A DNA stretch of 33,118 nt, taken from the IMG/VR virus record IMGVR_UViG_3300024520_000303, positions 1 through 33,118 of that record; one strand, written 5' to 3'. The position numbers were made by a program, and so were the translations under genes. Shown here in pieces: positions 24,993-27,221 of this stretch. The notes beneath the pieces are model-generated. The model worked only from the letters and a program-made list of their open reading frames with translations. It was not told the DNA's origin and did no database searches. Each line of letters starts with the position of its first letter. Position 1 is the stretch's first letter. The stretch comes from a virus.

Positions 24993-25504
24993 TGAAAGAA
25001 GCACACAGACATAGGATAACCGGCTTTAACGGCAGTCATGTTACGCACACGCAGTTAGAGACAAGGCCAAGCCATTACAGGAGGCCGTTGCGTGCAAAAT
25101 ACGATGAGGCAAAATCATTAATACATAAATATGGTATTACAGAGGTTTGGTTCCCTAGCAATTATGTCCCCGGTTCCAAGCCAATATTTAAGCGCCCCGT
25201 CGATAAGGCGGATATCCTGAAAAAAGTTGGTGTTCTTATGGACACAGATTTATCCAAGGGTGACTGGCAACTGGTTGGGTCATTTCTAAACCGGGGCGTT
25301 TCGCGCTACCTTGCGCCGAGAAGTGTGTCCCATGAAGTCCTTTCCCAAATCCGCGACGTATATAATTTGATCGAGGCTGGCGAATATAACCCCGATAATC
25401 GTCCGCCACCCTACAAGAATAAGAAACGCTCAGAGGCACATATCAATATGAATAACCATATGGTTAGGAAGGTTGCCAAAGGACGGATTGAAAAAGCCTT
25501 GTGA
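24992..25504 (+). CDS. Hypothetical basic protein, last gene of its operon
   Basis: 170 residues; the ATG at 24992 overlaps the previous stop. Basic, with HRITGFNGSHVTHTQLETRP, then KYDEAKSLIHKYGITEVWFP and a Lys/Arg-rich end (YKNKKRSEAHINMNNHMVRK). No family recognised. It is followed directly by a terminator. A DNA- or RNA-binding role is plausible from charge only. Confidence 0.55.
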   Translation: MKEAHRHRITGFNGSHVTHTQLETRPSHYRRPLRAKYDEAKSLIHKYGITEVWFPSNYVPGSKPIFKRPVDKADILKKVGVLMDTDLSKGDWQLVGSFLNRGVSRYLAPRSVSHEVLSQIRDVYNLIEAGEYNPDNRPPPYKNKKRSEAHINMNNHMVRKVAKGRIEKAL

Positions 25505-25513
25505 CCAATAAGA

Positions 25514-25554
25514 AAACCGCCCCGACAATTTGCTTGCCGGAGCGGTTTAATTTT
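25514..25554 (+). terminator. Rho-independent terminator
   Basis: AAACCGC and CCG pair with CGG and GCGGTTT around one C-A mismatch (11-base arms at 25514-25524 and 25538-25548), followed by AATTTT. It closes the operon that ends ten bases upstream and isolates the RNA region to its right. Confidence 0.75.
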
Positions 25555-25656
25555 AGTACCATAATCGTGCGACGGAAAATGGAGATATTAAGATAGCACC
25601 CCAGCAAAACAGTTACAAGACAAACCAGCCGATTTATTCGGGTGATTTTGCATGGG

Positions 25657-25883
25657 GATTTTGTGCTTTGGTGAGGGCAGCGGCGTGGAAAGCTGTTGAG
25701 AGTATGTGGGTTCGATTCCCGCCCCCTGCTTCGGCAGGGGTAGCTTATAGTGGCAATGGCGCTCAACTGGAGACACGCTTGAAGTATCCCAAGAAGGCTG
25801 GCGTTCAGCTGGGAGCCCTGACGAGGGAAAGTGTAGCCAGAGCTGGAGTAGCGCCCAGCCTGTCCTCTCCAAAGCACAAAGAC
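25657..25883 (+). ncRNA. tRNA-mimicking permuted structured RNA, Y RNA (YrlA)-like
   Basis: A T-arm (GTGGG, TTCGATT, CCCGC; 25706-25722), a 7-pair acceptor-type stem (CCCCTGC 25723-25729 with GCAGGGG 25734-25740) closed by TTCG, then T8-A9, a D-arm with G10, A14, G18-G19 and A21 (25743-25760), and an anticodon-type stem CTCAAC (25762-25767) paired with GTTGAG (25695-25700), with a 5-base variable loop. The order is circularly permuted: the T half comes before the D half. The outer ends form a long helix, 25657-25680 with 25860-25883, 22 of 24 pairs. Bacterial Y RNAs of the YrlA type have this build: a tRNA-like module plus a terminal Ro60-binding stem. No Ro60 gene is in the window. Confidence 0.7.
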
Positions 25884-26132
25884 GCCCGAAGCCATGGGCA
25901 CAGATAACATAATGGCTTATCCACCCCGATTAAAACAATCCCTACGGGACAAAGGCCGGGTAATTAATTGCCCCGGAGCAGCGCACGGCCCGCTGAGTGT
26001 CCAGATCTGTAGCTTGCGTAGGTGCAGTGAACGTGGTCGTACCACGTCCAAGGGATATTGCGCGTCATTCAGCCAGGGGCTTCTATAGGCCCTATTGGGC
26101 TTGCAGGAGAAGGCTTTTATAGGTTTTGGGGT
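25884..26132 (+). other. Gene-free structured region downstream of the ncRNA
   Basis: No convincing gene. Hairpins seen: GCCC-N8-GGGC right after the ncRNA (25884-25899), CCGGG with CCCGG around a TAATTAATT loop (near 25956-25976), ACGTGGT-CGT-ACCACGT (26031-26047), and GGGC-GCCC-GGGC elements at 26077-26100 that can pair in two exclusive ways. GGCTTCTATAGG (26078-26089) and GGCTTTTATAGG (26112-26123) are near-identical direct repeats. It may be the leader of the methyltransferase operon or part of a longer RNA. Confidence 0.4.
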
Positions 26133-26151
26133 TCGATATTGCAAATATCGA
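26133..26151. promoter_or_regulatory. Perfect 19-bp dyad, probable operator
   Basis: TCGATATT-GCA-AATATCGA is a perfect inverted repeat with eight-base arms. It overlaps a possible -35 box TTGCAA (26139-26144), which stands 16 bases before AATTAT (26161-26166), a weak -10. The next gene starts at 26229. A protein bound here would control the adenine methyltransferase operon. Confidence 0.5.
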
Positions 26152-26228
26152 TCTTGGCCGAATTATGTCAGAAACAAGTCGAAAAAGAATGCATTCAAGG
26201 TATAAACCAAAACAGTGAAGGAAGAAGA

Positions 26229-27221
26229 ATGAATACTACGCTGGTGAAATATGACGCGGCTTGCCAAGCAATAGCGGATGCCAGGACTATTGATGAGGTT
26301 AAAGATTTTCGTGATAAGGCCGATGCAATGAGGGCATACGCTAGACAAGCTAAAAACAAGGGGCTTGAGGTTGATGCAGCGGAGATACGATTCAGGGCGG
26401 AGCGCCGATTAGGAGAAATGATTTCAGCACAAAAAGACACCGTGGGTTTGGCAAAAGGTGGTTGGCCAACTCGCGGTGCCGAAGGGGAACCGCAAGTTCC
26501 GACATTATCTGAGGCCGGTATTGATAAGAAATTATCCAGTCGCGCACAAAAACTTGCTGCTGTGCCTGAAGACAAGTTTGAGGGGATGTTAGGCGAATGG
26601 CGGGGGCGGGTAGAAAAAGAGAATGAGCGCGTGACGGTAAGTCTTTTGCGTGAGGGTGAAAATGCGCGCCGTGATGACAATCTGGCGAAAGCCTCAACCG
26701 TATGGCCTGAAGGGATTTACCCGGTTATTTATGCAGATCCGCCGTGGCGGTATGAAAACCCACCTATGGGCGGAGGAAACAGGTCTATTGAAAACCACTA
26801 CCCGACAATGACGCTGGATGAAATCTGTGCTCTGCCGGTTGAATCTATTTCCGCTGATGGGTGTGTTTTGTTTCTTTGGGCTACTTCACCAAAACTGGCA
26901 GAGTGCATGGACGTTATAACCGCATGGGGTTTCAGTTATCGCACGAGTATGGTGTGGGTGAAGGACAAAATAGGAATGGGATATCACGCCCGCAATCGGC
27001 ATGAACTTTTGCTTATTGCGAAGCGTGGTGTGTTTGCCCCTCCTGAACCGTCTGACAGGCCGGATTCTGTATTGAATGCACCGCGTGCCGAGCATAGCGC
27101 AAAGCCGGAAATCTATTATAACTTGATAGAACAAATGTATCCCAACGTGCCCCGTGTTGAATTGTTCGCCCGCCAAGCCAGAGACGGTTGGGAGTCGTGG
27201 GGAAATCAAAGTGGTTCATAA
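26229..27221 (+). CDS. MT-A70 family adenine-N6 DNA methyltransferase
   Basis: 330 residues from the ATG at 26229, with GAAGGAAGAAG upstream. The catalytic DPPW lies in VIYADPPWRYENPPMGGG (about residue 176); NHYPTMTLDEICALPV, CVLFLWATSPKLAECMDV, YRTSMVWVKDKIGMGYHARN and the RHELLLIAKRG segment follow, all typical of MT-A70 enzymes. The first 150 residues form a helical part (AACQAIADARTIDEVKDFRD, EIRFRAERRLGEMI) that accompanies this domain in many phages. It should methylate adenine in phage DNA and may block host restriction. The next gene overlaps it by 11 bases. Confidence 0.85.
   Translation: MNTTLVKYDAACQAIADARTIDEVKDFRDKADAMRAYARQAKNKGLEVDAAEIRFRAERRLGEMISAQKDTVGLAKGGWPTRGAEGEPQVPTLSEAGIDKKLSSRAQKLAAVPEDKFEGMLGEWRGRVEKENERVTVSLLREGENARRDDNLAKASTVWPEGIYPVIYADPPWRYENPPMGGGNRSIENHYPTMTLDEICALPVESISADGCVLFLWATSPKLAECMDVITAWGFSYRTSMVWVKDKIGMGYHARNRHELLLIAKRGVFAPPEPSDRPDSVLNAPRAEHSAKPEIYYNLIEQMYPNVPRVELFARQARDGWESWGNQSGS

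Follow-up and report, generated by a model that had tools for sequence, protein, structure and literature searches.

We describe here an element of the plus strand of a phage contig that probably specifies a permuted tRNA mimic built like the YrlA RNAs and best read as a Ro60-independent tRNA look-alike. The window, that is the whole stretch of DNA analyzed, is a linear IMG/VR phage contig of 33,118 bases encoding a P22-type coat protein and a terminase, and the element measures about 230 nt between its helix ends (approximately 25655-25885). Our full proposal is that the phage encodes a structured RNA of this size which, independently of Ro60, would act as a decoy or platform for host tRNA-binding proteins; it is tentative and we give it slightly less than even chances.

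Architecture of the element and its locus

Direct reading of the plus strand revealed, at positions 25696-25766, a tRNA body in permuted order that contains all parts but the anticodon loop. Its segments follow one another as positions 39-43, variable loop, T-arm, acceptor hairpin on a UUCG, U8-A9, D-arm, G26 and positions 27-31, all of canonical length with the open anticodon loop as the exception. The features of the whole element are the following (p, pair probability).

25657-25680, plus strand: 5' arm of the terminal helix; 22 of 24 pairs with 25860-25883, p mostly 0.84-1.0
25680-25696, plus strand: junction hairpin GCGGC-GUGGAAA-GCUGU with a 7-nt anticodon-like loop; MFE structure, p ~0.4
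25696-25700, plus strand: UUGAG, position 39-43 strand of the anticodon-type stem; 5/5 pairs with 25762-25766, p 0.65-0.83
25701-25705, plus strand: variable loop AGUAU, 5 nt; read from the sequence
25706-25722, plus strand: T-arm GUGGG-UUCGAUU-CCCGC; 5/5 pairs, p ~0.99, and a match to the model R1 described below
25723-25740, plus strand: acceptor hairpin CCCCUGC-UUCG-GCAGGGG, which connects both tRNA halves; 7/7 pairs, p ~1.0
25741-25742, plus strand: U8-A9; read from the sequence, position conserved across the class described below
25743-25760, plus strand: degenerate D-arm GCUU-AUAGUGGCAA-UGGC with A14, G18, G19 and A21; three pairs plus U13-U22
25761, plus strand: G26; read from the sequence
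25762-25766, plus strand: CUCAA, position 27-31 strand of the anticodon-type stem; 5/5 pairs with 25696-25700
25767-25840, plus strand: second domain, with inner hairpins inside the closing helices CUGG/CCAG and ACAC/GUGU; MFE and centroid structures, p 0.53-0.68
25842-25859, plus strand: third small hairpin GCUGG/CCAGC; MFE structure, p ~0.53
25860-25883, plus strand: 3' arm of the terminal helix; 22 of 24 pairs with 25657-25680

The sequence-only reading of this DNA had announced permuted tRNA-like parts with the acceptor arms joined by TTCG, and both the sequence and the fold confirmed it; the outer helix of 22 pairs out of 24, with one A-A and one U-U mismatch, is likewise exact. The acceptor strands occupy 25723-25729 (CCCCUGC) and 25734-25740 (GCAGGGG) with UUCG between them, and in the folding ensemble the pairs of the acceptor, of the T-stem and of the outer-helix core reach p ~0.98-1.0. 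This outer helix is continuous, without internal loop. The hairpin with the GUGGAAA loop, which competes partly with other pairings, and the multi-helix domain 25767-25859 were absent from that first description. A UGGA loop is found at both ends of the opened anticodon region (GUGGAAA, 25685-25691; CUGGAGA, 25767-25773), as if the permuted element came from tandem duplication of one tRNA gene.

The D-arm that had also been claimed stands only in part. Indeed, A14, G18, G19 and A21 are present, but the arm is weak, its canonical stem pairs have p ~0.01 and the ensemble favours another D hairpin (GCU/GGC, p ~0.85). It resembles GUAGCUUAGUGGCAGAGCG of two phage relatives (L013 and L044). Moreover, the Levitt pair 15-48 is U-U in the window, U48 being unable to pair with U15. 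The T-arm/acceptor part and the outer helix can be regarded as solid, unlike the D-arm. The broken D-arm and Levitt pair, which are constant among relatives, could indicate decay of the window element.

We then compared the element with shuffled sequences. We used a permuted descriptor that asks for less than the core really shows (T-stem 5/5, acceptor at least 6/7, D-arm and 5-bp anticodon stem). It matched the real window once, and 3003 Markov-shuffled windows gave a single match. Of inverted repeats comparable to the outer helix (21 nt, at least 19 Watson-Crick matches, gap of 100-260 nt), the window has one, and 1 of 191 shuffles also had one. Positions 25650-25890 have an MFE of -107.1 kcal/mol versus -89.7 +/- 4.6 for shuffles, none of 200 being as low (z -3.8); with 10 more bases on each side z is only -2.2, and the core part folded by itself gives an ordinary value (z -1.3). 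ARAGORN found neither tRNA nor tmRNA in the window, Rfam found there no known RNA at gathering threshold, tRNA and tmRNA included, and the canonical tRNA fold has p ~0 in the ensemble.

The element lies within ~700 bases without recognised gene or RNA, between the gene ending at 25504 and an MT-A70 methylase gene. No convincing promoter was found on the plus strand. A 15-pair hairpin a short way past the upstream gene (25514-25548) is terminator-like on the minus strand and possibly bidirectional, and the remaining gene-free stretch (25884-26200) holds several hairpins, for example 26028-26050, and folds no better than shuffles. A DNA search with 25500-26210 gave no matches in phages and plasmids, and capsid and terminase relatives showed no DNA match; R1 matches inspected in these relatives were discarded as ordinary tRNA-like. 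Relatives of the neighbouring proteins (178 aa upstream; 195 aa) were not found among viral contigs, so the equivalent locus cannot be located elsewhere, and the sole near-identical contig (L082) starts at ~26,620, so that it does not cover the RNA. A scan with the outer-stem sequence returned only 3' ends of an unrelated coding gene. IMG/VR relatives, phages and plasmids yielded no homologue that spans the whole element (25505-26230), so the helices of the window element itself, including the terminal helix and the second domain, are without covariation support.

A phage class of permuted tRNA-like RNAs

IMG/VR was scanned with a pattern taken from the window and limited to the T-loop, two T-stem pairs, UUCG and UAGC. 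It yielded 78 stretches on 77 other phage contigs (L001-L078). Every stretch has a full set of the unconstrained T-stem pairs, and its acceptor strands, likewise unconstrained, are paired at 5-7 of 7 positions. The pattern therefore selects permuted tRNA-like RNAs specifically. Such RNAs are widespread in phages. We define the class here by a T-stem of 5 bp, a UUCGANN loop, a 7-bp acceptor hairpin and a D-arm starting with UAGC, all of which the window element displays.

Two alignments were examined for covariation, one of 29 RNAs from contigs with a TROVE gene and one of 17 RNAs from contigs without detected TROVE. The acceptor stem shows two-sided changes at 7/7 pairs in both, with scores of 0.59 and 0.77, respectively, versus 0.16 and 0.20 for shuffles; this covariation of tRNA-like stems belongs to the class alignments and does not extend to the window's own helices. 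In 66 of 69 phage relatives, positions 15 and 48 form a G-C or A-U Levitt pair (shuffle maximum 52), which argues for a true tRNA elbow in the class. Altogether, the strong compensatory changes and the covarying 15-48 pair show that the class is genuine.

A model built from the RNAs of TROVE phages, the window being left out (R1), has its top match in the window at the element, with 42.8 bits against 8.2 for the next match. This score is inflated, since the search pattern came from the window and 17 letters are shared, and it is not decisive alone because tandem ordinary T4 tRNAs reach 40 bits; the 7/7 acceptor hairpin distinguishes the window element from such tandem tRNAs. With R1, the stable RNAs C and D of T4 matched no further than a T-arm, and one further candidate (L160) was rejected as an ordinary tRNA adjoining a chance match.

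TROVE/Ro60 is encoded on 44 of the 77 contigs, which indicates that the class includes the phage YrlA-type RNAs; a further TROVE match is a bacterial genome. The TROVE proteins concerned are annotated Ro-like RNA-binding proteins in mycobacteriophages and other actinobacteriophages. The Ro60 side of the outer stem bears a GTTAC/GATAC-like motif in 35/41 RNAs of TROVE contigs versus 3/29 others (Fisher p 2e-10), the motif (G[GAT]TA[CT] region plus internal loop) having been defined on the same RNAs as those counted. The other 33 contigs, many above 50 kb, have no TROVE gene, with the reservation that TROVE detection may miss divergent members, and their RNAs are mostly without this motif.

Relation to Y RNAs and competing explanations

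The element had been proposed as a candidate Y RNA of YrlA type, its outer helix being the Ro60-binding stem. The architecture withstood our analysis: as in YrlA (RF02553; Salmonella, Deinococcus, actinobacteriophages), T-arm, acceptor hairpin and D-arm, the latter weak here, are permuted, the anticodon-type stem is formed by the two ends, and a terminal helix follows. The assignment did not. The window element scores 23.2 bits with the Rfam YrlA model, far below the gathering threshold of 69, and tRNA and tmRNA models also remain below threshold; eight phage relatives that we tested reach 30-48 bits, likewise under 69 but above the window. With ~230 nt and an extra domain, it falls outside the 90-150 nt reported for YrlA (PMC8394870). 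It also differs from YrlA by its broken D-arm and Levitt pair. As for the outer helix, the marker motif of TROVE-phage RNAs was looked for in the window element and is absent, and the lack of a Ro60 gene, already noticed from the sequence, held in a TROVE search over the 33,118 bases. This contig is not complete: the gene at its right end, which we infer from position and size to be the portal gene, is truncated, so a small part of the phage genome is missing. The element follows the same structural principle as YrlA but, since motif, TROVE gene, Rfam score and length all speak against membership, it is not filed as a Y RNA, and it lies outside the Ro60-linked part of the class. A putative action on tRNA enzymes fits the evidence better than the use of a host Ro60, these being the two roles previously envisaged. 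We therefore consider it rather unlikely that the element is a true but divergent Y RNA, whose terminal helix would bind a Ro60 from the host or from the missing piece of genome and whose head would dock a nuclease such as PNPase. The permuted head shared with phage YrlA RNAs and the incomplete contig would favour this explanation; besides the points above, it has against it an outer helix devoid of the internal loop seen in TROVE phages.

One would also wonder whether the parts line up by chance, as the remnant of a pair of tandem tRNA genes, or of the 3' end of a tRNA that serves as an attachment site. The degenerate D-arm would agree with such an origin, and so would the similar R1 scores of tandem tRNAs. 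A sub-threshold tRNA-Sec match (29.9 bits, 25650-25729) points the same way, as it shares the T-arm and the acceptor 3' strand and includes the junction hairpin with its GUGGAAA anticodon-like loop; the match itself was rejected for its poor D-stem and an acceptor pairing of p ~0 in the ensemble. However, acceptor pairing of 7/7 across a UUCG is not expected from tandem genes or from an attachment site, no canonical tRNA or tRNA fold is found in the window, and the whole element is enclosed by an unusually long helix, so that we judge a leftover distinctly unlikely. Even less credit, hardly any in fact, can be given to chance or to coding sequence without RNA function. Frames of 79 aa on the plus strand and 94/148 aa on the minus strand do overlap the element, and the failure to find a promoter would be in line with this view, but it is contradicted by the shuffle tests (descriptor, MFE and inverted repeat) and by the selectivity that the core pattern showed in IMG/VR, and the 94-aa frame matches no PHROG family.

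A last explanation, which we find scarcely believable, is that of a permuted tRNA gene, cut and ligated at the anticodon loop and freed of its UUCG linker to give a functional tRNA, a pathway found in some algae and archaea. To our knowledge, no such processing is known in bacteria. The permuted tRNA genes of red algae and archaea resemble the element in having the 3' half before the 5' half and linked acceptor ends, all tRNA segments of the window are of canonical length, and the UGGA loops on both sides would read GGA (Ser); in addition, some phage relatives have full anticodon arms and one (L004) has ACCA after the acceptor strand. Nevertheless, the window has neither a splice motif nor matching loop halves that could be rejoined, its D-arm is broken, the UUCG leaves no CCA end, and the long variable arm that serine tRNAs need is absent. 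Two-piece or permuted tmRNAs also have permuted acceptor ends with a linker; they differ by a reduced D-loop, where the window has a real D-arm, no tag frame and no ARAGORN or Rfam tmRNA match. A close parallel may be drawn with phage RNAs of TROVE-free contigs (for example L012, L021, L038, L049 and L057), which share the core and the lack of both TROVE and the Ro60-side motif. These RNAs keep the D-arm and the Levitt pair, which the window does not, and often have a full anticodon arm, in some cases CAGCAA, and in several cases ordinary tRNA genes beside them, none of which is seen in the window.

Proposed role and variation within the class

To return to the Ro60-independent mimic that we favour, its head would imitate tRNA by circular permutation, with the acceptor ends joined by UUCG and the opening placed in the anticodon loop. 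The two open ends would lead through a multi-helix junction into the long terminal helix, which could protect the ends and hold the head open. As its acceptor end is not free and its anticodon loop is not closed, such an RNA could be neither charged nor used for decoding. Host proteins that recognise tRNA, such as modifying enzymes, nucleases or exoribonucleases, might bind the T-arm/acceptor elbow, and the RNA, presumably transcribed, may thus be a decoy or docking platform; where a phage has no Ro60, this seems the simplest reading. DusA and TruB both modify YrlA, which also tethers PNPase to Ro60 (PMC8394870), and the tRNA-like domain of YrlA has been suggested to be a competitive inhibitor of anticodon nuclease (PMC7790460).

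A much broader hypothesis, which we regard as improbable, is that the 33 contigs of the 77 and the window represent a Ro60-independent phage family of permuted tRNA mimics, distinct from Y RNAs, which would titrate away host proteins that act on tRNA (defence anticodon nucleases or modification enzymes, for example), a subset of the mimics possibly maturing into real tRNAs. YrlA-type tRNA mimics are thought of as Ro60 partners. The present mimic, which has neither the Ro60 gene nor the stem signature, and 33 similar contigs suggest that this module is employed independently of Ro60, and the proposed role against tRNA-cleaving defences would then be directly testable in phages.

Some variation was observed among the phage RNAs. 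A CAGCAA motif lies upstream of the permuted core in 8/29 RNAs without TROVE (L014, L016, L021, L034, L038, L039, L049 and L067) and in 0/41 TROVE RNAs, which suggests a different protein partner in these non-TROVE contigs. Many permuted RNAs have a full anticodon arm upstream of the T-arm, with a canonical variable loop of 4-5 nt. Anticodon-like loops of the form NUNNUAA (U33, U36, A37 and A38, a t6A-type context) are present in 34/70, versus a mean of 1.2 and a maximum of 6 in shuffles, and are commoner in TROVE contigs (27/41 versus 7/29).

Several permuted elements may also occur together. A second permuted RNA of L004 (9900-10020, minus strand) has an acceptor hairpin loop starting with ACCA (discriminator plus CCA), an anticodon-like loop ACG (Arg), and T-arm and acceptor strands identical to those of the window; the same stretch holds two more permuted elements and no canonical tRNA. 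Clusters of three permuted elements with differing anticodon-like loops were seen in L032, L064, L078 and L181, the last being located in an Anaerolineae genome with TROVE. Finally, the RNAs of L053 and L076 are apparently opened elsewhere, with the anticodon arm after the D-arm and a short outer stem at the variable loop.
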